Shown here piece by piece: positions 7,070 to 58,026 of a DNA stretch of 64,000 nt. The DNA is taken from assembly GCF_002803155.1 (NCBI RefSeq), contig NZ_NNBP01000012.1:186001-250000 (forward strand), given 5' to 3'. The number at the start of each line of letters is the position of its first letter. Position 1 is the first letter of the stretch. A model generated the notes under the pieces. It had not been told where the DNA came from, did not search any database, and saw only the letters and a list, made by a program, of their open reading frames with translations. Made by a program: the position numbers and the translations under genes. The DNA is from Streptomyces sp. CB02959 (GTDB lineage Bacteria; Actinomycetota; Actinomycetes; Streptomycetales; Streptomycetaceae).

Positions 7070-8665
7070 TCACCGCGCCGGCCACGCCACCTCCGGCGCC
7101 CGGTGGTAGCCGATGCCCTGGGCGTCCCACCGCGGCCCCTGCGCGGCCAGCCGCGCCCGGTACCCGTCCCAGCCGTGCGTCCGGGCCGGCGACCAGCCCA
7201 GTTCGGCGATCCCGGGCAGCCGCGGGAAGGCCATGTACTCGATGTTCGCCGAGGTCGTCAGGGTCTCCGACCACAGGGGCGCCTCGACGCCCAGGACCGC
7301 CGCGCCGGGCGCACCCTCCAGGTACGTCCCCGGGTCCCAGTCGTAGGCGCGCCGGACGTCGACATAGCCGGCCCAGTTCAGGCCCAGCGGGGTGTCCTTG
7401 TCGTACTTCATGTCGAGGTAGGCGCGGTCGGCGGGCGACAGCACCAGCCCGGTCCCGTGCTTCGCGGCGTCGGCGACCTGCGCGCGCTCCTCCGCGCCCG
7501 TCTTGTCGTAGCCCCAGTACTGGGCGATGGCCCCCTTGGCCGGGTGCGCCCCGGTCAGCTGGTGCCAGCCGACCACGGTCTTGCCGTATTTGGCGACCAC
7601 CGGCTGCACCCTGTCCATGAAGGCGACGTAGTCCGCATGGCTGGTGGAGTGCGCCTCGTCGCCGCCGATGTGGAGGTAGCGGCCGGGGGTGAGCGCGGCG
7701 ATCTCCCGGATGACGTCGTCGACGAAGTCGTAGGTGGCCTTCTTGGGCACGCACAGCGAGCTGAAGCCGACCTTGGTGCCGGTGTAGAGCGGCGGCGCCT
7801 CGCCGTTGCAGTTGAGGTCGGCGTACGAGGCGAGCGCGGCGTTGGTGTGGCCGGGCATGTCGATCTCGGGGATGACGGTCAGATAGCGCCCGGCGGCGTA
7901 GCGGACGATCTCGCGGTAGTCGTCCTTGGTGTAGTAGCCGCCGCGGCCGCCGCCGACCTGGGTGCTGCCGCCGTAGGTCGCCAGTCGCGGCCAGGAGGCG
8001 ATCGCGATCCGCCAGCCCTGGTCGTCGGAGAGGTGCAGATGCAGCTTGTTGATCTTGTACTGGGCGAGCTGGTCGATGTACCGCTTGACCTGCTCGACGG
8101 TGAAGAAGTGCCGGGAGACGTCCAGCATCGCGCCCCGGTAGGCGTAGCGCGGGGTGTCGGAGATGGTCCCGCCGGCGATCCGCCACGGGCCGGGCTGCCG
8201 GCTCTTCTTCTCGACGGCGGCCGGCAGCAGCTGGCGGAGGGTCTGGACGCCGTGGAAGAGGCCGGCCGGGCGGGCGGCGCTGATGGTGACCGCGCGGCCG
8301 CCGGAGGTCAGCTTGTAGCCCTCCGCGCCGAGGCCGCGGGTGTCCCGGCCGCCGAGCCGGAAGACGATGCCGTCCGAGCCGCCGCGGGTGGTGACCGGCA
8401 GCGCGAAGCCGGTGGCCGGCCGCAGCAGCCCGGCCAGGTAGCCGGCGATCTGCCGGGCCTCGCCGGAGTCGCCGGGCACCCGGATCCGGGTGCGCTCGCC
8501 GATCGTGTACGCGTCGCCGGCCGGGCGGACCGAGGCGGGCGCCGGGATCACCCGGTCCAGCGGGGTGGCGGCGGGGGCCGCGGCGCCCTGCGGCGGCACG
8601 GCGGCGGTCACCGTGCCGGCCGCGGCGACCAGCAGCAGCGAGAACAGGAGTCGGCGTCGTCTCAT
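7070..8665 (-). CDS. Secreted beta-N-acetylhexosaminidase (GH20)
   Basis: The protein has 531 residues. An N-terminal signal peptide (RRRR, then a hydrophobic LLFSLLLVAAAG core) is followed by a GH20b-like domain and the GH20 barrel. The catalytic Asp-Glu pair lies in the motif HIGGDEAH (D336, E337), and the preceding MPGHTNAA and YRGAMLDVSRHFF segments are typical. It releases GlcNAc from chitobiose and related glycans outside the cell. The gene is convergent with acdH and divergent from a small gene and glmS, with a DasR-like site between them, which fits induction by chitin breakdown. Confidence 0.93.
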   Translation of the reverse strand: MRRRRLLFSLLLVAAAGTVTAAVPPQGAAAPAATPLDRVIPAPASVRPAGDAYTIGERTRIRVPGDSGEARQIAGYLAGLLRPATGFALPVTTRGGSDGIVFRLGGRDTRGLGAEGYKLTSGGRAVTISAARPAGLFHGVQTLRQLLPAAVEKKSRQPGPWRIAGGTISDTPRYAYRGAMLDVSRHFFTVEQVKRYIDQLAQYKINKLHLHLSDDQGWRIAIASWPRLATYGGSTQVGGGRGGYYTKDDYREIVRYAAGRYLTVIPEIDMPGHTNAALASYADLNCNGEAPPLYTGTKVGFSSLCVPKKATYDFVDDVIREIAALTPGRYLHIGGDEAHSTSHADYVAFMDRVQPVVAKYGKTVVGWHQLTGAHPAKGAIAQYWGYDKTGAEERAQVADAAKHGTGLVLSPADRAYLDMKYDKDTPLGLNWAGYVDVRRAYDWDPGTYLEGAPGAAVLGVEAPLWSETLTTSANIEYMAFPRLPGIAELGWSPARTHGWDGYRARLAAQGPRWDAQGIGYHRAPEVAWPAR

Positions 8666-8802
8666 GGACGGTCCCTTCGGCGAGCTTCGTCAGCGGCACG
8701 TTCTGCGGGGCGTTCTGCGGGCGACGCACCCGGGGGCGCACGTTCTGCATGGCATGGAGCGACCGGACGGTGACCATGCGTACCGCGCGCCCGGTTGCCG
8801 GT

Positions 8803-8818
8803 CAAGGTGTAGACCAGT
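8803..8818. promoter_or_regulatory. Candidate DasR operator (dre-like site)
   Basis: On the minus strand this reads ACTGGTCTACACCTTG, matching the well-known Streptomyces dre consensus (ACTGGTCTAGACCAGT) at 12 of 16 positions. It lies 138 bases upstream of the hexosaminidase start and 81 bases before the small gene preceding glmS. DasR is the GlcN-6-P-responsive repressor of chitin and GlcNAc genes. Both neighbours belong to that physiology. Confidence 0.6.
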
Positions 8819-8898
8819 TTCCGGGCGCGTTCGGTGTCCACTGCCCGATATCGGGCAGATTTCTTGCGATTCTCCGCGCGGCCCCGCAATATCGACGG

Positions 8899-9174
8899 GT
8901 GCTCGAACGCCGTCCGTCCCACGAGGACCTCATCGACCACCTGGTCCGCAGCACGCCGCTCCAGCGCGGCGAAGCGGCCCGGGTGGTGCTGGACGTGCTG
9001 GCGTACTTCGACGAGAGCACGGAGGGGTTCGTCCGCCGCAGACACCGCGAGCTGCAGTCCCAGGGGCTGCGGAACGAGGCGATCTTCGAGCGGATCGCAC
9101 ACGAGCTGCCGCACCGCGCCGTGTCCCCACCGTCGCTCTCGCTGCGCCAGCTGCGGCGCCTGGTCTACGGCTGA
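8899..9174 (+). CDS. Small conserved protein of unknown function upstream of glmS
   Basis: A 91-residue, charged, helical protein from a GTG at 8899. The conserved-looking part begins LERRPSHEDLIDHLV and ends LSLRQLRRLVYG. An in-frame ATG at 8749 would add 50 residues of low similarity to anything; the region around 8803 looks regulatory, so the shorter form is preferred. No membrane segment or catalytic motif is seen. It precedes glmS by 79 bases. I do not recognise a function. Confidence 0.6.
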   Translation: MLERRPSHEDLIDHLVRSTPLQRGEAARVVLDVLAYFDESTEGFVRRRHRELQSQGLRNEAIFERIAHELPHRAVSPPSLSLRQLRRLVYG

Positions 9175-14944: not shown

Positions 14945-15018
14945 GGTGGGTATAGCTCAGCTGGTAGAGCACCTGGTTGTGGTCCAGGATGTCGCGGGTT
15001 CGAGTCCCGTTACTCACC
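14945..15018 (+). tRNA. tRNA-His (anticodon GTG)
   Basis: A full cloverleaf is visible: acceptor GTGGGTA/TACTCAC with an extra 5' G opposite discriminator C, the tRNA-His identity feature. The anticodon stem CCTGG/CCAGG holds the loop TTGTGGT (anticodon 14979-14981), and the T-arm contains GGTTCGAGTCC. CCA is not fully encoded. Its 3' part is the prophage attachment core, so the last 22 bases are supplied by the integrated element. A TACACT about 45 bases upstream is a weak -10 candidate. Confidence 0.95.
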
Positions 15019-15019
15019 C
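14997..15019. other. attL core (23 bp, within tRNA-His 3' end)
   Basis: Identical over 23 bp to 58004-58026; the bases on each side differ (G/T before, A/C after). It covers the T-loop to the discriminator, so the tRNA stays intact after integration. The integrase gene begins 109 bases to the right, the normal position for a tyrosine integrase and its attP. Confidence 0.93.
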
Positions 15020-15127: not shown

Positions 15128-16390
15128 ATGGCGACCATCAGAGAGCGGACCCGCAAGGACGGTTCCTCGATCTTCCAGGTCCGTTGGGTCCAAGGGGGAC
15201 GCGGCGGGACCAACGAGACGGAGTCGTTCGCCGAGCCGGAGCAGGCAGATCAGTTCCGGAAGCTCGTGGACGCGCACGGCCAGGAGTGGCCCCCGGGCTG
15301 GATCAAGGGCCGCGGATTCGTCGAGCCGGACACCGACCCCGACGACATCCCTTTCGTCGACTGGGCGACCCGCTACGTCGACCGGCTGACGGGCATCGAC
15401 GAGCGCACCCGCGAGGACTACCACCGAGACATCCGGATCCACCTGTCCCTTCTCCAGCACACCACCCGGGCCGGCGTCGTGACTCCGGCGACCATCTGCA
15501 ACCTCACGGCCGATGACATTCAGGACTGGGTACGGGCCGAGGAGAAGGGGGCGCCGGACGAGGGGGACGCCGAGAAGTGGGCGCGGCGGCCCGCCGACCC
15601 GAAGTCGATCGCGAACCGCCACGGCCTCTTGTGGTGCATCGTTCAGGCCGCGGTCGAGGCCGAGCCGCAGCTACGGACTACGAACTGCTGCAAGGGCACC
15701 AGCCTGCCTCGGGTGGACGACCACACCGAGGAGGAGATGTGCTTCCTGGAGCACGACGAGTACGCGCGAATAGCTGCGGAGATCAAGGATCCCGCGGCCC
15801 GGGACCTCGCCGACTGGCTCGTCAGCACGGGGATGCGGTGGGGCGAGGCTACGGCCCTCCAGGTGCGCGACTTGGCCCTAACCGCCGACCGGCCCACGGT
15901 GTCCGTGCAACGGGCCTGGAAGAAGGCGAAGAAGGGTTCTGAGGCGGCGTTCTACCTCGGGCCGCCGAAGACCCGGAAAGCGCGGCGCGTGCTGGCCCTG
16001 TCCCCCGCGCAGGTGGAGATGGCGCGGCGCCTGGTGGTCGGCCAGCCGCCGGCGGGGTTCGTGTTCCGGGCGGCCATGGGCGGGGCGTGGCGGCACGCGA
16101 ATTTCTACAACCGGAAGTGGATGCCGGCGGTGAAGAGCGCCGTTGAGAAGGGACTACCGAAGCGTCCGCGGATTCATGATCTGCGGCACACGCACGTCTC
16201 GTGGCTGATCGGCGCGAACATCCCTCTCCCTGCGATCCAGAACCGGTTGGGGCACGAGTCGATCCAGACGACGGTCGACCGGTACGGGCATCTGGTGCGA
16301 TCTCTGGACGGGGAGATCGTGGCCGCGGTTGAAGCCGCCCTGTCCGGGCCGGCGATTCCAGCACAGGGCAGGCTGCGCAGCGTGGTCTAG
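15128..16390 (+). CDS. int: Tyrosine integrase of the prophage
   Basis: The 420-residue tyrosine recombinase performs site-specific integration at tRNA-His. An arm-binding N-terminus (MATIRERTRKDGSSIFQVRW) is followed by a SAM-like core-binding domain (about 75-190) and the catalytic domain. Catalytic residues visible are R237 (STGMRWGEA), H350 and R353 (IHDLRHTHV), H376 (LGHES) and the nucleophile Y386 (VDRYGHL). The C-terminal tail after Y386 is about 35 residues. Its stop codon overlaps that of the convergent small gene by three bases. Confidence 0.95.
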   Translation: MATIRERTRKDGSSIFQVRWVQGGRGGTNETESFAEPEQADQFRKLVDAHGQEWPPGWIKGRGFVEPDTDPDDIPFVDWATRYVDRLTGIDERTREDYHRDIRIHLSLLQHTTRAGVVTPATICNLTADDIQDWVRAEEKGAPDEGDAEKWARRPADPKSIANRHGLLWCIVQAAVEAEPQLRTTNCCKGTSLPRVDDHTEEEMCFLEHDEYARIAAEIKDPAARDLADWLVSTGMRWGEATALQVRDLALTADRPTVSVQRAWKKAKKGSEAAFYLGPPKTRKARRVLALSPAQVEMARRLVVGQPPAGFVFRAAMGGAWRHANFYNRKWMPAVKSAVEKGLPKRPRIHDLRHTHVSWLIGANIPLPAIQNRLGHESIQTTVDRYGHLVRSLDGEIVAAVEAALSGPAIPAQGRLRSVV

Positions 16391-50627: not shown

Positions 50628-50894
50628 TTGGACGCCACCACCCTCGGCAGCGTGCTCGCGCTCGCAGGGGTGCTCTCCGGCGCGGTGGTGGCGTACCTCG
50701 GCAAGCGGGGCGAGAACGCCCTCACCGGCTACAGCTCTCTCACCGACAACCTGCAAGAGGAGCGCGACCGGCTCGACCGGAAGACTCACGAGCAGGCCCT
50801 CGCCCTCGCCGAACAGGCAGCGCTCCGCGCCCTCGACCAGGCCGAGATTGCCCGACTCCGCGCCCTCGTCATCACCCTGGGAGGTACCCCGTGA
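50628..50894 (+). CDS. Single-span lysis-cassette protein with coiled coil
   Basis: An 88-residue protein from a TTG with AGGAGGA. One N-terminal membrane helix (LGSVLALAGVLSGAVVAYLG) is followed by a long charged helix (LQEERDRLDRKTHEQALALA). Could be a second holin or holin regulator. It overlaps the next gene (GTGA). Confidence 0.6.
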   Translation: MDATTLGSVLALAGVLSGAVVAYLGKRGENALTGYSSLTDNLQEERDRLDRKTHEQALALAEQAALRALDQAEIARLRALVITLGGTP

Positions 50895-51562
50895 CCCGCA
50901 CCGAGCGGGCCCTCGCGCACCGCTGGCGATCCCTCGCGCTCGTCTGCACGCTCGTCGCGCTCGCCGGTGCCGTACTGATCATCTGGGCCCGGATAACGTC
51001 CGAGGCCAGCCGCGCCGACCAGCTCGCCGCCGAGGCCGACCGGCGCGGCTCGGCGGTGTCGACGCTGGCGTCCGATGTCCGCACGCTGCGAGCGCAGGTG
51101 AAGGCGGCCGGCCGCACGCCGGCCGCGCCGGATCCGTCGCAGGCCATCGCGGGCCTGTCGGACCGGGCGCGGGTGCCGGTGCCGATCCCGGGGCCGGTCG
51201 GCGCGACGGGACCGCAGGGGAAGCCCGGCGCGACGGGGCCGTCTGGTGCACCCGGGCGGACGGGTGCGGCGGGCAGCGATGGGAAGGACGGATCCGATTC
51301 GACGGTCCCGGGGCCGGCTGGTCCCGCGGGTCCGGCCGGGCCTGCTGGCCCTGCGGGGACGGCGGGGAAGGACGGGGCGCCGGGCCGGGATGGTGCTCCG
51401 GGCCGGGACGGGCAGACCTGCCCGACCGGGTATCGCCTCCAGGTCCCGCCGGGCGATCCGGACGCGCTGGTGTGCCGTCGTGATGGCGCGCCCACGTCGC
51501 CGGACCCCGGCCCATCAAAATCGCAGCCGGCCATCCTCACCCCGGACCGGCGGCGTATGTGA
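50891..51562 (+). CDS. Membrane-anchored collagen-like protein in the lysis cassette
   Basis: A 223-residue protein with a short basic N-terminus, one membrane span (LALVCTLVALAGAVLIIWA), and a coiled coil (about 42-75). A collagen-type Gly-x-y run follows at about 98-175 (GPVGATGPQGKPGATGPSGA onwards, interrupted once by SDSTVP). A Cys-containing tail QTCPTGYRL ends near VCRRDG. Trimerisation through the collagen part is expected. The role in lysis or attachment is unknown. Confidence 0.8.
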   Translation: MTRTERALAHRWRSLALVCTLVALAGAVLIIWARITSEASRADQLAAEADRRGSAVSTLASDVRTLRAQVKAAGRTPAAPDPSQAIAGLSDRARVPVPIPGPVGATGPQGKPGATGPSGAPGRTGAAGSDGKDGSDSTVPGPAGPAGPAGPAGPAGTAGKDGAPGRDGAPGRDGQTCPTGYRLQVPPGDPDALVCRRDGAPTSPDPGPSKSQPAILTPDRRRM

Positions 51563-51642: not shown

Positions 51643-52008
51643 TTAAAGCAGCGACTTTTCGATGGCCTCAAAAATGTCCGAGTCGGTTTCCTTCTGCCAG
51701 TCCGGGAGAGCGGGCCAGTCAGCCACGTATCCAGGCTTCGGGCTTTCGAAGTGCTTATACATCTGAGCCGTCCAGCAAGTGGCGACGAAGCGCCCCTTCT
51801 GTTCGCGCGTGAGTCGCGTTGCGTTCCCGTCGCTCAATGCGAGGAATTGGCGAACCTGCTCATACACGGCACCTGCCGCTTGACGCTCCCATTCGGGAGT
51901 GCCATCCCAAGGCGTCACATATCCCGGCTTCGGGTCTCCAGGGAAATGCTCGCGCACCCCCGCGATCCATGCCTCACGGAACACCTTTGACCCATCTCGC
52001 TGCGACAC
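51643..52008 (-). CDS. Partner protein of the XRE-TPR regulator, internally duplicated
   Basis: A 121-residue protein from a GTG at 52008, two bases after the regulator stop, with AAAGGGG upstream. Two similar halves repeat the pattern HF-x-PKPGYV-x2-W...W (REHFPGDPKPGYVTPW and YKHFESPKPGYVADW), each followed by an amphipathic helix. Family not recognised; the pairing with the regulator suggests a joint role. Confidence 0.68.
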   Translation of the reverse strand: MSQRDGSKVFREAWIAGVREHFPGDPKPGYVTPWDGTPEWERQAAGAVYEQVRQFLALSDGNATRLTREQKGRFVATCWTAQMYKHFESPKPGYVADWPALPDWQKETDSDIFEAIEKSLL

Positions 52009-52010
52009 TC

Positions 52011-53273
52011 TTACCCCTTTCTCAACATCGTTTGCAGGGAACCGATTTCAGTACTGAAGGAGGCCACGCGACCATCTCGCCCGCACTTCTGTAGATCCAT
52101 TTGAAGACCTTGGAGCCGACGTGCGATATACCCCGAGCCGGATTGCTTGGCGAGTTGAAGCGCCTCACCGCCATAGGTTATGACTTGCTCCACGTCACGG
52201 CGCTTTGCCCCAACTGCGGCCAGGTCCACCAGCACCGCCCCGCGACGCCGGAAAGACTGGCCTTTGGACAGCGCCCTCGATTCGAGTGCGCGCTTGAGTG
52301 TCTCCTCGGCAAGGTCCAACCGCCCGAGCTGCACGTACCGCGCCCCCCGTTCTTCAGCGAGTCGAGACCCATCGAATCGAAGCCATCCACCGGTGTGGAC
52401 AGGCGTAGCCAGGTCGGCTACGCGCTGCGCTTCATCAAGGGCTCTTTCGCAGGCACCTAGGTTTTGCAGCCCGGCATACACCTCAGCTTGCACCGAGGCA
52501 ACCCAATGGCGGGTGGACAATGCACTGTCACCACGCTTAGCAACTCGCCCCGCTACGTCCAGGGTTTCGGCGGCTTCCGTGTAGCGCCCCTCATAGAGGT
52601 CGACATAGGCATGACGAACGAGTGCACACGCCCATAGGTCAAATGCTTGCACGTTACTGCTCGCAGATGCGGCCAAAGCATAGGACGCTGCTGCGTCCGT
52701 GTAGCGATTTCCATCAAACGAGAGTTCTCCGGCGAGTTGAAACAAGTCGCCCGCGGCCTCACATAGGCCAGCCCCGCGACTCGATTCCTTCAGTGCATCA
52801 TTCAGCGCGCCAAGCTGATCCTGCACAACAGGGGTCACGGATCTTTTGGAACGGGCCAGTTGATAAACCTGCCACAGGTGACTGTTCATCAATCGGAAGT
52901 CGTCCGCCGAACGTCGGTCTACTATCTCGGCTATCGCGTCTGCGTCGCCGGGTGCCAGTGCAGTCAAGGCGCCCGCCACCACCATCAGGCGTAGAAACTC
53001 ACGTCGGATCATGTCATCGATTTCCTCAGTGCCGTGTCGGTCGCAAGGCGGCGACGCGGTGCACTCCTGGAAATCTGCTCGTGGCGGAGTCAGCAATGCG
53101 TCGAGTTCGTTGAGGCTCAGTTGTAACGCTTCGGCCATCTTGGGCCGGTGATACGCCTCGGGTGTTGTCACTCCGCGGTCCCAGCGGCCAACCGTTGTGC
53201 GGTCGACACCGATTACGGCGGCGAAGCGCTCCTGACTGTAACCCATGGCTTTTCGCTGTTCGGCTAGGCCCAC
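52011..53273 (-). CDS. XRE-family regulator with TPR domain
   Basis: The 420-residue protein has an N-terminal helix-turn-helix (MGYSQERFAAVIGVDRTTVG, then RWDRGVTTPEAYHRPKMAEA), a short linker (about 63-95), and a C-terminal half of tetratricopeptide-like helix pairs (AASYALAASASSNVQAFDLW, LGRLDLAEETLKRALESRAL). This architecture is common in Streptomyces regulators. It is divergent from the small-protein/Nudix/ASCH operon and has direct repeats upstream. GTG start with GAAGGGG. Confidence 0.88.
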   Translation of the reverse strand: MGLAEQRKAMGYSQERFAAVIGVDRTTVGRWDRGVTTPEAYHRPKMAEALQLSLNELDALLTPPRADFQECTASPPCDRHGTEEIDDMIRREFLRLMVVAGALTALAPGDADAIAEIVDRRSADDFRLMNSHLWQVYQLARSKRSVTPVVQDQLGALNDALKESSRGAGLCEAAGDLFQLAGELSFDGNRYTDAAASYALAASASSNVQAFDLWACALVRHAYVDLYEGRYTEAAETLDVAGRVAKRGDSALSTRHWVASVQAEVYAGLQNLGACERALDEAQRVADLATPVHTGGWLRFDGSRLAEERGARYVQLGRLDLAEETLKRALESRALSKGQSFRRRGAVLVDLAAVGAKRRDVEQVITYGGEALQLAKQSGSGYIARRLQGLQMDLQKCGRDGRVASFSTEIGSLQTMLRKG

Positions 53274-53322
53274 TTCAGCCCCCTTCCCTGCTCGATCAGG
53301 GTCTTACCCATGCTGCGCAACT

Positions 53323-53355
53323 GTGCATCGGAGGTGCATCAAGGGTGCCGCATGG
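53323..53355. promoter_or_regulatory. Three 11-bp-spaced direct repeats between divergent cargo operons
   Basis: GTGCATCGGAG, GTGCATCAAGG and GTGCCGCATGG follow one another from 53323, in phase with the DNA helix. They lie 50 bases upstream of the XRE-TPR start and 128 bases before the rightward operon. Likely a regulator site or part of the promoters. Confidence 0.5.
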
Positions 53356-53482
53356 ATGCGGTGGCCCGCAGCGATCCCCGGCGGTTGGCTATGAGTGCTC
53401 GCCGGAACGGCTTCCACGGCCGTGGCTCGGCGCGTTGTCAACGGGGGACGGAAGGACAACCGAGCAACCAGTAGGAGGCGCC

Positions 53483-53656
53483 ATGAGTGGCATGACACTC
53501 GCGGTGTACCGAACCGACAGAGCAGGGAACCGGGTATCCCTCCGGCCGGAGAGTCGAGTGAAACCCTCGGCACGTATCCCATCAACGGGGGCGTGGCCGC
53601 CCTGCCAGTGCCACCGGTGCGGGGGCCCGACCAGGACTTGCGCGGGCACACGGTGA
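53483..53656 (+). CDS. Small Cys-rich protein, first gene of the cargo operon
   Basis: A 57-residue protein with TAGGAGG before the ATG. The end, PPCQCHRCGGPTRTC, is a compact zinc-binding-like motif. Similar small proteins accompany XRE regulators in Streptomyces. GTGA overlap with the next gene. Confidence 0.62.
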   Translation: MSGMTLAVYRTDRAGNRVSLRPESRVKPSARIPSTGAWPPCQCHRCGGPTRTCAGTR

Positions 53657-53865
53657 CGGCTCCGACCCAGTACTCACAAGAGCCAGTTGAGTTGCCCATC
53701 GATGGATGGTTGTACGGCGTCCGCCTGGCGCCTGAGTGCGGCGTCTGCGCGGCCTTGAAAGCCGAACTCGACGAAGCACTGAGTGACCGGAACTTGAAAA
53801 AGGCGTACGAGGTAAGCCGGGAAATCCGTAGCCACCCGAGCGGACACAGGAAGGGGCGGCGGTGA
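53653..53865 (+). CDS. Small cargo-operon protein
   Basis: A 70-residue protein from a GTG overlapping the upstream stop. It has a Cys pair in APECGVCAALKAELDEALSD and a basic helical end (KAYEVSREIRSHPSGHRKGR). Unknown role. Confidence 0.6.
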   Translation: MTAPTQYSQEPVELPIDGWLYGVRLAPECGVCAALKAELDEALSDRNLKKAYEVSREIRSHPSGHRKGRR

Positions 53866-54044
53866 GTTCTTCCCAAGACGTCGGCCGCACGTTCGCCCCG
53901 GACAACGAGCGCGAACGAGCCGGCGACGAGCCAGAGATGCATCGGGGCTACGTCCTCCCCGGAGTGACGTTCGTGCCTGCCGAGAAGGTCCCGCCCTGCC
54001 CCTACACCTGCGACATTTGCCGCACCGCAGGGAGACAGGCGTGA
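53862..54044 (+). CDS. Small cargo-operon protein
   Basis: A 60-residue protein from a GTG overlapping the previous stop. The end PYTCDICRTAGRQA carries a C-x2-C pair. It is otherwise polar and probably unfolded (MSSSQDVGRTFAPDNERERA). Confidence 0.55.
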   Translation: MSSSQDVGRTFAPDNERERAGDEPEMHRGYVLPGVTFVPAEKVPPCPYTCDICRTAGRQA

Positions 54045-54199
54045 GCCCCCGGCAGTGCACCGCGCGCCACCCGTGGCCCGTCCAGCACCGGCCTCCTGGC
54101 CTACCGAAGTGGGCCCGGTGCGACGGGCGCCACAAGCACAAGGGAAGCCACCGCACGCGGCTCCCCAGACTCGGGCTCGACCTGTGGTGGGCGGGGTGA
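54041..54199 (+). CDS. Small His/Cys/Trp-rich cargo protein
   Basis: A 52-residue protein from a GTG. Pattern CTARHPWPVQH, then WARCDGRHKHKGSHRTR and a Trp-rich end. Recalls short metal-binding proteins common near Streptomyces XRE clusters. GTGA overlaps on both sides. Confidence 0.55.
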   Translation: MSPRQCTARHPWPVQHRPPGLPKWARCDGRHKHKGSHRTRLPRLGLDLWWAG

Positions 54200-54402
54200 T
54201 GACGACGACCAGCGAACCCGCGTACGGCGTGATGTCGGGGACCGTCGGCGACGACGTGATGACCGTCCACGAGTTGGTCTGGGTCGCCGGCAAGCAGCGG
54301 CCGAAGTGCGGCGACGGCTCCCCGGAGGACCGGGTCGAGGAGTGGTTCCGCCGGGTCAACTGCCCCTACTGCCTGGCCGACGAGCAGGCCCCCGCCGCCT
54401 GA
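54196..54402 (+). CDS. Small cargo-operon protein with a Cys pair
   Basis: A 68-residue protein; GTG at 54196 overlaps the upstream stop, and an ATG follows as second codon. The end RRVNCPYCLADEQAP holds a C-x2-C. A hairpin (54500-54538) follows before the next gene. Confidence 0.58.
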   Translation: MMTTTSEPAYGVMSGTVGDDVMTVHELVWVAGKQRPKCGDGSPEDRVEEWFRRVNCPYCLADEQAPAA

Positions 54403-54499
54403 CCGCACAGACCCCCGGCGCACGGATCGCCGGGCGCGCTCCTCGCCGCCACACCCGGGGCTTTCCTCTCTTCCCCCTGGGATGGCGGATGAGAGCGCA

Positions 54500-54538
54500 G
54501 CGCCCGCCCGTAGGTTGGCCGCCGCGGCGGGCGGGCGC
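54500..54538 (+). terminator. Hairpin within the cargo operon
   Basis: Perfect 10-bp stem (54500-54509 with 54529-54538) and 19-base loop, 98 bases after a stop and 35 bases before the next start. May separate the small-protein genes from the Nudix part. Confidence 0.5.
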
Positions 54539-54573
54539 ATCCCCATCCTGTACCCCACGACGAGGACACTGTC

Positions 54574-54756
54574 ATGACCCAACCCACCCCCGACGACGAG
54601 CAGTTGTTCCGCGACATCTGCGCCCTCGGTGCGACGGTCAACGCCGCCCGGGACGAGGGTCTGCCGCCCGCGGTGCGCGAGGTGCTGGACGACCTCGCCG
54701 CCGAGCAGGCCGCGGACATCTCCCGCAACCACGGCACCGGCAGGGGGACCGCGTGA
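54574..54756 (+). CDS. Small acidic cargo protein
   Basis: A 60-residue acidic helical protein (DDEQLFRDICALGATVNAAR, then VREVLDDLAAEQAADISRN). It is coupled to the Nudix gene by a GTGA overlap. Unknown role; possibly a partner of the Nudix protein. Confidence 0.58.
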   Translation: MTQPTPDDEQLFRDICALGATVNAARDEGLPPAVREVLDDLAAEQAADISRNHGTGRGTA

Positions 54757-55244
54757 CCGCGCCGGCACGGGACCAGTTCACCAACCCGGACGGCCGCCGG
54801 GTCGGGGCGCTTGCCCTCTTCCGCAACGCCGCCGGCCATCCCCTGATGCTCCGCAAGCGCGACCGGGACGAACTCCCGTGGTGCCTTCCCGGCGGGTGCG
54901 CCGTCGGCGGCGAATCCGCCCTCGCGGCGCTGCGCCGGAAGGTGCTGGAGGAGACCGGACTGCACGCCACCCCCGGTCTGCTGCTGGTCGAACACCACAT
55001 GCCGGCCACGACCAAGGTGGCGGAGGGGAGCAACCTCATCTTCGACTGCGGAGAACTCTCCTCCAAGGCGGAGGTCCGGTTGAAGAGCGCCGAGTTCAGC
55101 GAGTACGCGTTCATCGCCCCGGAACAGCTCGCAGACGCAGCACAGCCCCACACGGCCGCGCGGGTGCAGGCCGCTCTGTACGTCGCCAAGGTGGGCGGCG
55201 GAGCGCTGTTCCTGGAAGGCGCCAGCCGGCCGTACGTGCCCTAG
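54753..55244 (+). CDS. Nudix hydrolase with altered Nudix box
   Basis: A 163-residue protein with the Nudix fold. The box reads G-CAVGG-E-SALAALR-RK-VLEETGL, fitting GX5EX7REUXEEXGU except that the Glu of RE is Lys. The two metal-binding Glu in the EE pair are present. In MutT the replaced position is a catalytic residue, so activity may be changed or lost. Substrate cannot be inferred. It precedes the synthetase-like gene. Confidence 0.83.
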   Translation: MTAPARDQFTNPDGRRVGALALFRNAAGHPLMLRKRDRDELPWCLPGGCAVGGESALAALRRKVLEETGLHATPGLLLVEHHMPATTKVAEGSNLIFDCGELSSKAEVRLKSAEFSEYAFIAPEQLADAAQPHTAARVQAALYVAKVGGGALFLEGASRPYVP

Positions 55245-55252
55245 CCCCGACT

Positions 55253-55288
55253 CCCGTCCGGCTGGCCGGCCGATTCCGGCCGGACGGG
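55253..55288 (+). terminator. Hairpin after the Nudix gene
   Basis: Perfect 10-bp stem (55253-55262 with 55279-55288), 16-base loop, eight bases after the Nudix stop. Confidence 0.6.
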
Positions 55289-55315
55289 CGCCTGGCCCCT
55301 GACGGTCGCCAGGCC

Positions 55316-55358
55316 GCTCCGCACGTCCCCTCCCTGTGATGCGCGGGACGTGCGGAGC
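55316..55358 (+). terminator. Strong hairpin in the leader of the synthetase-like gene
   Basis: Perfect 14-bp stem (55316-55329 with 55345-55358) and 15-base loop, 40 bases before the GTG start. It may terminate upstream transcription or act as an attenuator. The T-box core sequence expected for synthetase leaders was not found. Confidence 0.55.
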
Positions 55359-55398
55359 ACCAGATCAGTGCACCCACCACAAGCGGAAGGGAACGGAT

Positions 55399-56511
55399 GT
55401 GTCTTATCCCGTCTCACCGAACACCGTGTTGGCCAATGCGCTTACCCATGCCGAGGACGTGCTCGCTCCGCGCATCGCCTTGATGCGCCCGGCCGGCGTC
55501 ACGTTCGTCGTGGGCACGCAGATCAACGGCGTTCCCCATCTGGGTACCTCGCTCGTCCAGTCCCTCAGCTTCGCCGCCGCGGCGCGCGTCCGCGACCGCT
55601 TCGAGGTGCCCGTCACCGTGCACTTCGGCGCCCTCGACAACGCCCCGCACGAGGTCGTCACCGACCCTGCCTCGGGCCACCGCTACCAGCGGGCCTACGC
55701 CCACGCGCTCGGCGAGGCCGCCCTCGTCGAGCAGGTCAACGAGCTGTACCGGCCGCTCTTCGACGAGCTGTCGCGCCAACTGCACATCCCGTACGCCATC
55801 GAGATGTACTCCCAGCAACAGGCGGAAGAGCGGTTCCGGCGTACCTGGCTGAGCGCGCATCGCCGCCTCGACGCCACGCGGTGGTGGCTCGACCCCTCGC
55901 ACGGCGTGCCGCACGTCCGCATCCCCTGCCCGCGCCCGGGATGCGGATGGGCCGAGAAGTACGCCGAGCGCACCCGGATCCTGCTGGACACCGACTGCGC
56001 CGAGATCACCGCGGTATGCCTCCACCACGGGCCCTACGAGGTCGCCGTCCACCCCTCCGGTGGCGGGTACCTCGACCTGGCGACGCTCTACCGGAACCTC
56101 GTCAAGGAAGTACTCCTCGCCGAGGAACGTGACCGGCTGTACGTCATGGTCAAGGGCGGCGACTGGGTGTTCGGCTCACAGCTCGTCGACTGCGCCATGC
56201 AAGCCGCCGGGCTCGGCGCGAGCGGCCAGCTTCCCGCCCGCCTGTTCTGCCCGCAGGTCGTCACCGACACCGGCGCCAAGCTGAGCAAGTCCCTGATCCG
56301 CGACGGTCGCGCCCCCTTGCCGGATGGCGCTGCCCCCTGGATGCTCGACACCCGCATGTGGGCAGGCTCGTTGCCCGAGTACGCCGGGGGCCTGCTGCGC
56401 ATGGCCGATGTGCTGCTGAGCGACCCGCGGCACTTCTTCCGCTCGTACTCGGCCAGCGAACTCGGCCGCCTCATGACAGCGCCTGCGACAAGGAGCATCC
56501 CCGCACCATGA
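55399..56511 (+). CDS. Class I aminoacyl-tRNA-synthetase-like protein
   Basis: The 370-residue protein starts at a GTG with GGAAGGGAA upstream. The class I Rossmann core is visible: the first signature is GVPHLGTSL (P46-H47-L48-G49, a HIGH variant), and the second is KLSKS (K294-S298). A Cys-containing insert (C177, C182, C200, C207) looks like a zinc ribbon, as in class I LysRS-like enzymes. After KLSKS only about 70 residues remain, so an anticodon-binding domain seems absent. It probably adenylates an amino acid, but the acceptor is unknown. The ASCH gene is coupled downstream. Confidence 0.7.
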   Translation: MSYPVSPNTVLANALTHAEDVLAPRIALMRPAGVTFVVGTQINGVPHLGTSLVQSLSFAAAARVRDRFEVPVTVHFGALDNAPHEVVTDPASGHRYQRAYAHALGEAALVEQVNELYRPLFDELSRQLHIPYAIEMYSQQQAEERFRRTWLSAHRRLDATRWWLDPSHGVPHVRIPCPRPGCGWAEKYAERTRILLDTDCAEITAVCLHHGPYEVAVHPSGGGYLDLATLYRNLVKEVLLAEERDRLYVMVKGGDWVFGSQLVDCAMQAAGLGASGQLPARLFCPQVVTDTGAKLSKSLIRDGRAPLPDGAAPWMLDTRMWAGSLPEYAGGLLRMADVLLSDPRHFFRSYSASELGRLMTAPATRSIPAP

Positions 56512-56864
56512 CCGACACCACGACCCGCGTCCACGAGCTGAACCTGTTCCGGCGCTACTTCGATCTCGTCGCCGCGGGCCGGAAGAGCATCGAGGTGCGG
56601 GTCCGGTACCCGCACCTCGAAGACCTCGCGGCTGGCCACCTGATCCGCTTCCGGATCAAGGGCACCGAGGAGACATGCGAAGTACGCGTGACGCGAGTCA
56701 CCCGATACGACGACTTCGAGGCACTGCTCGACGGCGAGGGGCCAGCGAACATCAACCCCACGTCCAGCCGCGAGCAGCAGCTCACCAACATCCGGACCAT
56801 CTACCCCCCGGAGAAAGAGGCGCTCGGCGCGCTCGCCATCGGTATCGAACTCGTCGAGTCGTAA
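56508..56864 (+). CDS. ASCH-domain protein
   Basis: The 118-residue protein has an ASCH (PUA-like) fold. It shows FDLVAAGRKSIEVRVRYPHL, GHLIRFRIKGTEETCEVRVT and the later IYPPEKEALGALAIGIEL. ASCH domains bind RNA or nucleotides. The ATG overlaps the synthetase-like stop (ATGA), so the two are made together; an RNA-directed complex is a reasonable guess. Confidence 0.82.
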   Translation: MTDTTTRVHELNLFRRYFDLVAAGRKSIEVRVRYPHLEDLAAGHLIRFRIKGTEETCEVRVTRVTRYDDFEALLDGEGPANINPTSSREQQLTNIRTIYPPEKEALGALAIGIELVES

Positions 56865-56877
56865 GCGTTCGCCCCCT

Positions 56878-56910
56878 CGCCCCGCCTGCGTGCTCGTGAC
56901 GGGCGGGGCG
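56878..56910. terminator. Cargo-operon terminator
   Basis: Perfect 9-bp GC stem (56878-56886 with 56902-56910) and 15-base loop, 13 bases after the ASCH stop, followed by TTCTGCT; convergent with the next gene. Confidence 0.7.
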
Positions 56911-57026
56911 TTCTGCTGCGCACACGCCGGGCGCCAACCCGAGGTGTTCGTGGACGCCGCCCGCGCTTGCCTCACAGAGCCCCTTGGTGGCACGCCGGCA
57001 GCGGAGCAGGATTGCATGTAGGCACG

Positions 57027-57662
57027 TCACGACAGCCAGTCGTCGAACACCTCGTGCGTCACAGCGCGGAGCAATTCGTCCTCCACCGGGCCAGCACCAG
57101 GACGGGATGCGTCGAACCCGTACGGGACCCCTGAGGCAGCCCACACCTGTTCGGCGCCCGGCGTGGCCGCGACGCAACCGAGGCGCAGGTCACCGGCGAT
57201 CCACAGGACACCACGCCCGTCGGCCATGCTGTGCCACACGCCGTCGGGAACGGCCGAGGAAAGTACCCGCGCCACGCCGCCGTCAGGGCGCAGGAGGAGC
57301 AACAACCGATCACCGCTGCCTGTCTGCTCCAGCTGGCACGGCCACGACTGGAACGGATGCTCCTGGGCGACGTTCACGATGGGCTCCGACCTTGCGTAAG
57401 CGGTTGAAGCGATGCCCCAGGCCAGGGGCACGCTACACAAGGCACCGGTGCACAGCATGACGGCCCAGCCCGGAGTGGCGAGCCCTCCGGGGATCCACAC
57501 CGTCAGCAGCACGGTGACACCCACGACCGCCAACAGGCCGGCCACCCACGACGCGCCGCGCCACACTCGCTGCTCGTGCCGCATCCACTCCATTCGCCCC
57601 GGGGGGAAGTACTGCGCCGCCGGCTGCGACGACACCTGATAGCCGTACTCGTCCGCCAGCAT
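57027..57662 (-). CDS. Two-span membrane protein at the right end of the prophage
   Basis: The 211-residue protein has two adjacent membrane helices (about 40-62 and 66-90; SWVAGLLAVVGVTVLLTVWI, then PGWAVMLCTGALCSVPLAWG). A soluble C-terminal domain (SWPCQLEQTGSGDRLLLLLR, then ADGRGVLWIAGDLRLGCVAA) resembles a beta-rich sensor. The ATG at 57662 has GGGGG just upstream; an ATG at 57692 is possible. Antisense, single gene; function unknown. Confidence 0.65.
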   Translation of the reverse strand: MLADEYGYQVSSQPAAQYFPPGRMEWMRHEQRVWRGASWVAGLLAVVGVTVLLTVWIPGGLATPGWAVMLCTGALCSVPLAWGIASTAYARSEPIVNVAQEHPFQSWPCQLEQTGSGDRLLLLLRPDGGVARVLSSAVPDGVWHSMADGRGVLWIAGDLRLGCVAATPGAEQVWAASGVPYGFDASRPGAGPVEDELLRAVTHEVFDDWLS

Positions 57663-57692
57663 GAAGCCCCCAACTCCGTTGCGATGCCTCAA

Positions 57693-58003: not shown

Positions 58004-58026
58004 GGTTCGAGTCCCGTTACTCACCC
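58004..58026. other. attR core (23 bp)
   Basis: Exact copy of 14997-15019, reproducing only the tRNA-His 3' end; the remainder of a tRNA is absent here. Host DNA resumes at 58027. Confidence 0.93.

Follow-up and report, generated by a model that had tools for sequence, protein, structure and literature searches.

The stretch of DNA under study (hereafter the window: 64,000 nucleotides of contig NZ_NNBP01000012.1 from Streptomyces sp. CB02959) sits inside a host genome of 10.36 Mb and carries a prophage, near the right end of which a gene for a class I aminoacyl-tRNA synthetase-like protein is directly overlapped by a gene for an ASCH protein. The original prediction had described these two genes, together with a Nudix gene ahead of them, as a three-gene cassette; the synthetase-like/ASCH pair was retained on analysis, while the Nudix gene, having no homologue at the related loci searched, was not. 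The pair is an uncharacterised, mobile, two-gene enzyme unit made up of the following features:

55399 to 56511, plus strand: class I synthetase-like protein of 370 amino acids with a LysRS-I-type core, GTG start
56508 to 56864, plus strand: ASCH protein of 118 amino acids with a GxKxxExR motif, ATG start, ATGA overlap with the preceding gene

Of 109 distinct main-clade loci, 108 have an ASCH gene downstream of the synthetase-like gene, the lone exception being cut by a contig end, and these 108 loci together with the window constitute the 109 units on which the junction and motif counts are based. Among the 99 unfused units the junction is an ATGA overlap in 87, a 1-nucleotide overlap in 9 and some other spacing in 3, whereas in 10 of the 109 units both genes form one continuous open frame with ASCH at the C-terminus, the place where LysRS-I has its anticodon-binding part. 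For one such fusion, L103, whose identity to the window protein is 70%, the model had an overall predicted local distance difference test score (pLDDT) of 89.4, both domains but not the linker being confident, and one half of the model matches LysRS-I 1irx while the other matches the ASCH protein 2z0t (TM 0.91 on the target). The protein distances of the two partners correlate (r 0.83 over 105 units, maximum of 1000 permutations 0.28), also within the main clade (r 0.64 over 91 units, maximum of 1000 permutations 0.21). Compared with seven relatives, the synthetase-like gene gave nonsynonymous distances (dN) of 0.14-0.24 and synonymous distances (dS) of 0.61-0.81, with dN/dS ratios of 0.20-0.39, and the ASCH gene gave ratios of 0.16-0.31, both genes being under purifying selection. 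The synthetase-like gene and ASCH are a mobile, co-evolving unit.

The pair does decay. In the genus set, a broken synthetase-like gene lies beside a near full-length ASCH gene at six loci (L058, L060, L061, L066, L068 and L069), and ASCH does occur alone, without any synthetase-like gene, at seven others (L259 to L265), two of which keep a remnant tail. No main-clade locus was found in which ASCH was lost while the synthetase-like gene stayed intact, so that homologues of the enzyme occurring singly and free of co-conservation, which would have spoken against a common unit, did not turn up in this clade. This one-sided decay, in which ASCH outlasts the enzyme gene, is suggestive only, because three of the six broken genes are disrupted by a single frameshift each, possibly a sequencing error, five of the seven loci lacking the enzyme gene have no remnant and perhaps never contained it, and the synthetase-like gene is 3.1 times longer, so that by our own arithmetic neutral decay alone would yield 13 of 13 with a probability of about 0.03.

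The two proteins and their spread

In the synthetase-like protein, the two class I signatures PHLG and KLSKS were located at residues 46-49 and 294-298 respectively, together with a KGGDW motif and Cys/His zinc-type motifs. Of the motifs compared across 105 full-length main-clade proteins, K[LIM][SA]KS and KGxDW occur in every one, PHxGT occurs in 104, and the counts for the two Cys motifs are 103 and 105. In a set of 17 sequences from five clades, Q41, N43, P46, H47, G49, T50, C177, C182, C207, H210, D255, K294, K297 and S298 are invariant. An AlphaFold2 model built on 18 homologues (pLDDT 89.4, predicted template modelling score (pTM) 0.89) has the Rossmann core with HIGH and KMSKS motifs of the class I fold. 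Its closest fold is LysRS-I 1irx (Foldseek E 1.1e-8; VIA Z 19.5, root-mean-square deviation 3.4 over 291 residues), followed by BshC (Z 16.8), CysRS (14.2) and MshC (13.1), the VIA comparison having covered the solved structures ranked highest by Foldseek. The likeness to LysRS-I extends to both motifs and, by eye against the Streptomyces LysRS-I, to a Cys-type insert before the G-x-D segment. In LysRS-I the anticodon-binding part lies at the C-terminus. Residues 16-370 of the model align to residues 3-338 of the 507 of 1irx and the rest of the LysRS-I chain is unmatched, the model stopping where the C-terminal region starts. The predicted presence of both signatures and absence of an anticodon-binding domain were therefore upheld, and the structural check that could have overturned them, a normal anticodon domain or a missing ATP site, revealed neither, since the predicted fold keeps the ATP-site motifs.

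By sequence the protein is far less easily placed. Its identity to every solved synthetase is low, the search of the PDB gave two chance-level matches (best E 0.97), and the window protein has no Pfam family at E 1 and no NCBIfam match. The best member of the family reaches 21.9 bits against the LysRS-I family PF01921, under the cut-off of 27, and the Macrococcus member described below matches it at E 9.4e-5, under the curated cut-off. For the MshC/CysRS family PF01406 there was no match to the window protein (E 1) nor among 18 members (E 10). In PHROGs, on the other hand, the window protein matches phrog_35625 over its full length (E 5.6e-179), and one representative from each of the clades B, C, D and E matches it too. 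That entry, probably built on phage copies like those of Picard and Mojorita, is labelled 'tRNA synthetase'; the label comes without a function and does not record the link to ASCH. A replacement LysRS was considered and rejected, since the protein lacks the anticodon domain and a separate LysRS-I is encoded elsewhere in the host genome.

The partner, predicted as an ASCH-type protein coupled by translation, proved to be one, with the ATGA overlap given above and a match to PF04266 at E 1.2e-12 (48.8 bits against a cut-off of 21.2). Its GxKxxExR motif is kept in 109 of 109 units, and Pfam score, the general GxKxxxxR motif and fold all place it among ASCH proteins. The closest solved relatives by sequence are archaeal, namely 2z0t (PH0355), 1xne and 1s04 (E 2e-16 to 2e-11), 2z0t being the closest also by fold. 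These differ from the window protein in being archaeal and were deposited as hypothetical proteins, and we know of no synthetase-like partner for any of them. As described in PMC7641849, ASCH is a member of the PUA/ASCH superfamily, whose domains bind nucleic acids and in some cases modified bases. Cleavage of single-stranded RNA is reported for ZmASCH (PMC5615036). A YqfB-like deacylase was also considered; the catalytic triad of that amidohydrolase type is given as Lys-Thr-Glu (PMC9599836), and the idea was rejected because Glu replaces the catalytic Thr, three residues past the Lys, in 109 of 109 units.

The search of the genus gave matches in 41 of 295 genomes, fragments included, and a species collection gave 212 relatives of the synthetase-like protein, the best 80 of which were kept, 76 of these being from Streptomyces. 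The pair is present in 12 viral contigs, ten at 69-80% identity and two at 54%, in the Streptomyces phages Picard and Mojorita, and on plasmids of Streptomyces, Amycolatopsis and Prauserella. In Mojorita it adjoins a serine integrase and its members are annotated 'tRNA synthetase' and 'RNA binding protein'. In viral contig L226 (80%), the pair lies, as in the window, downstream of relatives of the window genes 50628-50894 and 50891-51562 near the lysis end, a phrog_12213 gene taking the place of the Nudix gene. The two genes have travelled jointly through phages, plasmids and chromosomes.

Prophage setting and neighbouring genes

The prophage spans about 43 kb and is delimited by a 23-bp repeat, consisting of the 3' end of a tRNA-His gene and an exact copy of it. 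The remaining features are as follows:

14946 to 15019, plus strand: tRNA-His (ARAGORN), the 3' 23 bp of which (14997-15019) are attL
15128 to 16390, plus strand: tyrosine-integrase-like open reading frame (ORF) of the prophage, called by inspection
52011 to 53273, minus strand: XRE-type regulator, weakly matching TPR, at a distance of about 2.1 kb upstream from the synthetase-like gene
54574 to 54756, plus strand: 60-amino-acid ORF overlapping the Nudix start
54753 to 55244, plus strand: Nudix protein whose box has RK in place of RE, a neighbour in the prophage
55316 to 55358: perfect 14-bp inverted repeat between the Nudix and synthetase-like genes
58004 to 58026: attR, exact 23-bp repeat of the tRNA-His 3' end

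At the right end, the order is XRE regulator (minus strand), 60-amino-acid ORF, Nudix gene, synthetase-like gene and ASCH gene. The repeat at both ends and the tyrosine-integrase-like ORF agree with the proposed location near attR, and the description of the pair as phage cargo is supported. A divergent XRE-TPR regulator had likewise been called, and the minus-strand XRE ORF is indeed there, 1.3 kb upstream of position 54574 with small ORFs in between; it matches HTH_3 in Pfam at E 1.6e-8 and, more weakly, TPR_MalT at E 8e-4, under the cut-off of that family. This regulator is not a fixed partner: only weak homologues were found, at single loci, and among 68 divergent genes HTH_31 was found in 9 and HTH_3 in 5. 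The 60-amino-acid ORF has no family match and no homologue at the related loci searched.

The Nudix ORF matches PF00293 (E 1.7e-12). The Nudix box consensus is GX5EX7REUXEEXGU, and the window protein, which has RK where RE is expected just as had been noticed, matches a relaxed but not the strict form of the box, which is hence not intact. A tblastn search with this protein gave no homologue in 40 genus loci, in 90 wider loci (partly from the same strains as the 40) or in 13 viral or phage loci, and Pfam found no Nudix domain among 71 genes lying immediately upstream of the pair. As a partner of the pair it was consequently rejected, and the Nudix gene is a bystander. The lone Nudix gene seen near another copy, on an Amycolatopsis plasmid, is annotated NUDIX and lies 1.4 kb downstream on the opposite strand. 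The 71 upstream genes themselves fall into 21 BLAST clusters, the largest of which (23 genes) is HATPase-type, and comprise 23 HATPase_c_2, 3 AAA_28 and 3 PycTM matches. The upstream genes of L139, L141 and L143 form one cluster, whose member shown has predicted membrane segments; the three matches to Pfam PycTM (Pycsar effector) are possibly these three genes.

The 14-bp inverted repeat immediately precedes the synthetase-like gene and is itself preceded by a GC-rich hairpin. A repeat of at least 12 pairs before the synthetase-like gene was found at 16 of 109 loci, compared with 2 of 109 in composition shuffles, details being listed for 40 of the 109. The repeat of the window does not recur in this form at the other loci listed, and a conserved regulatory hairpin was therefore rejected. 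Farther upstream, the window gene 50891-51562 encodes a collagen-like Gly-X-Y protein adjoining presumed lysis genes and has a 62% relative in viral contig L226.

Distant clades

Outside the main clade, relatives of the synthetase-like protein fall into four distant lineages, with a different ASCH type in two and none in the other two. Clade B was found in 6 of 200 genomes from a single family of the class, with 7 loci in all, and in 7 of 7 loci a second, ZmASCH-type gene lies within 5 kb of the enzyme gene, one of them cut by a contig end. The profile of this clade-B ASCH matches ZmASCH (5guq family) at E 3e-7, and against Pfam ASCH its best E is 0.028, in 3 of 10 members. At one locus (L174) the neighbours are alanine-dehydrogenase, methyltransferase (one match weak) and AdoMet-decarboxylase genes. 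An ORF in L070 (about 8001-8927) combines an N-terminal stretch that by eye resembles an M20 peptidase with the C-terminal part of a synthetase-like protein similar to those of clade B, and a ZmASCH-type gene lies in the same stretch.

Two Macrococcus plasmids (L180 4134-8048 and L181 13506-17420) carry two ATP-grasp genes, an MFS transporter gene, the enzyme gene and an ASCH-like gene, with a regulator opposite and an adjoining tyrosine recombinase. The ASCH-like gene encodes 137 amino acids and overlaps the synthetase-like gene in 2 of 2 plasmids; its product has no Pfam or PDB match. The main-clade ASCH profile matched this and the clade-B ASCH genes weakly, and only the ZmASCH-type profile placed them (E 3.5e-5 and 7.5e-5 for the Macrococcus genes, in a search of ten loci). 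A scan of viral contigs with the Macrococcus synthetase-like protein gave no relative.

Clade C (L063, L064 and L173, about 42-46% identical) has the enzyme without ASCH. OCD (ornithine-cyclodeaminase), carbamoyltransferase and methyltransferase genes precede the enzyme gene and PhyH and ABC genes lie opposite, PALP and AurF genes also preceding it in L063 and, by clustering, in L064. This description is based on Pfam for L063 only, up to PhyH, on the same gene clusters in L064 and on inspection of L173. The set resembles a small cluster for making a modified amino acid, and no ORF resembling a non-ribosomal peptide synthetase was seen by eye in the L063 stretch. On a Pantoea plasmid (L182 8240-12020), the operon consists of methyltransferase, enzyme, LOG-type, EamA transporter and Ham1-family genes. 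With two ASCH types and two clades lacking ASCH, the ASCH link therefore probably arose more than once.

Acceptor and role of the pair

Aminoacyl-adenylate formation is established for class I synthetases, and because the fold and the ATP-site motifs are kept, the synthetase-like protein likely activates an amino acid, that is, it would bind ATP and an amino acid and make the aminoacyl-adenylate. Because the model has no anticodon domain, the protein could not choose a tRNA in the way of LysRS and would not charge tRNA by anticodon reading. The ASCH protein, or the C-terminal ASCH domain of a fusion, would take over recognition of the acceptor, a role suggested by its constant coupling, its C-terminal position in fusions and its presence in two forms. 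The amino acid would thus be placed on an unusual acceptor, most likely RNA or a modified nucleotide, although we are less sure of this acceptor class than of the activation step. Temperate phages, plasmids and chromosomes hold the unit as accessory cargo, and its regulators vary. A split aminoacyl ligase of this sort, a relative of LysRS-I that is sometimes a single chain and acts on an RNA or nucleotide, has, in our estimate, an even chance of being the correct description.

Several observations weigh against this reading. ASCH is not required by every member, since two profiles detected none at the three clade-C loci and the one Pantoea plasmid, and neither the clade-B nor the Macrococcus ASCH-like protein passes the Pfam ASCH cut-off. 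The clade-B ASCH type, present in 17 of 200 genomes, 6 of them with the clade-B enzyme, also occurs without it. The neighbourhoods of clades B to E are biosynthetic-looking and suit a small molecule as acceptor no less well than RNA; overall the distant contexts favour a small-molecule acceptor about equally. The fusion model has a pTM of 0.74, so that its domain arrangement is not fixed, and a comparison of shallow profiles of LysRS-I, MetRS and CysRS/MshC did not separate these families, MetRS giving the best of three weak scores, on 71 columns around KMSKS.

These contexts lead directly to the second reading, a small-molecule ligase joining an amino acid to a metabolite or nucleoside, with ASCH serving product immunity or processing. 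It would account for the PALP, AurF, OCD, carbamoyltransferase, methyltransferase, PhyH and ABC genes of clade C, the alanine-dehydrogenase, methyltransferase and AdoMet-decarboxylase genes of L174, the two ATP-grasp genes and MFS transporter of Macrococcus, and the methyltransferase, LOG-type, EamA and Ham1 genes of Pantoea. MshC and BshC are class I synthetase cores used for non-translational aminoacyl chemistry. Further precedents are SbzA, which transfers Ile from Ile-tRNA onto a metabolite (PMC6331615), and MetRS-like domains that make hydrazines (PMC11705231), both being class I cores turned to the same kind of chemistry. All of these enzymes, the cupin-MetRS type included, belong to other subfamilies than the window protein. 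No cupin was found in seven window proteins (51646-57692) or among the 71 upstream genes. To our knowledge, none of the precedent enzymes has an ASCH partner. Against this reading, the main clade has no constant biosynthetic neighbour, its 71 upstream genes being spread over 21 clusters. A small-molecule acceptor is considered possible but the less probable chemistry.

The ligase acting on RNA or a nucleotide may also be extended to a widespread, mobile conflict system of a new kind, in which a LysRS-I relative would make an aminoacylated RNA or nucleotide and ASCH would read the product or protect the carrier. This tentative proposal, which we would rather doubt than adopt, includes repeated recruitment of different ASCH types, lysogenic cargo and the survival of ASCH as an immunity gene. 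Synthetase cores lacking the parts that read tRNA form known side-branches of translation, and each of them uses a different acceptor. The present case is a sizeable family, with no Pfam or NCBIfam match for the window protein and, in the main clade, a constant PUA/ASCH partner; if aminoacylation of RNA or nucleotides is true, phage cargo would be tied to directly testable chemistry. The statement that no described system of such composition is known agrees with searches of open-access papers, which gave nothing on point on a synthetase-like enzyme with ASCH, on LysRS-I paralogues in gene clusters or on phage Picard.

A toxin/antidote or defence module, in which the synthetase-like protein would be toxic through aminoacylation and ASCH would be its antidote, is judged unlikely. 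It overlaps in probability with the first two readings, as it concerns the role of the pair and they its chemistry. Its attraction lies in a pair that is carried by mobile elements and coupled in translation, in the three upstream genes matching PycTM, in the co-occurrence of ASCH proteins with predicted toxin systems, described in PMC7641849, and in the 13 loci that keep a near full-length ASCH with the enzyme gene broken (6) or absent (7), the reverse being seen 0 times in the main clade. Against it, three of the broken copies differ by one frameshift each, which could be a sequencing error, no remnant is seen at five of the seven loci without the gene, and neutral decay by length (3.1 times) gives 13 of 13 at about 0.03. 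The decay pattern says nothing about toxicity. No PADLOC family matched the synthetase-like protein or ASCH at E 0.1. A known defence system was rejected on this ground, the weak PADLOC matches of the Nudix and XRE proteins looking generic.

A tRNA-modifying enzyme in the manner of GluQ-RS, which would attach an amino acid to a base in one particular tRNA, with delivery by ASCH, is less likely still. GluQ-RS, itself a truncated class I synthetase, acts on a base within tRNA; it derives from GluRS and is a single gene. The outline is shared, with a truncated class I core and a PUA-superfamily RNA binder, and C-terminal fusion of ASCH would suit such an enzyme. The sole tRNA gene found in the window by ARAGORN is nevertheless the attachment-site tRNA-His, and no tRNA-modification family was found among the neighbours scanned with Pfam. 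Finally, a degenerate, non-catalytic paralogue kept as decoy or RNA-binding scaffold, to which the low identity to every solved synthetase and the disabled copies in the genus might point, is very improbable, since the ATP motifs are kept in 104-105 of the 105 full-length proteins and the genes are under purifying selection.

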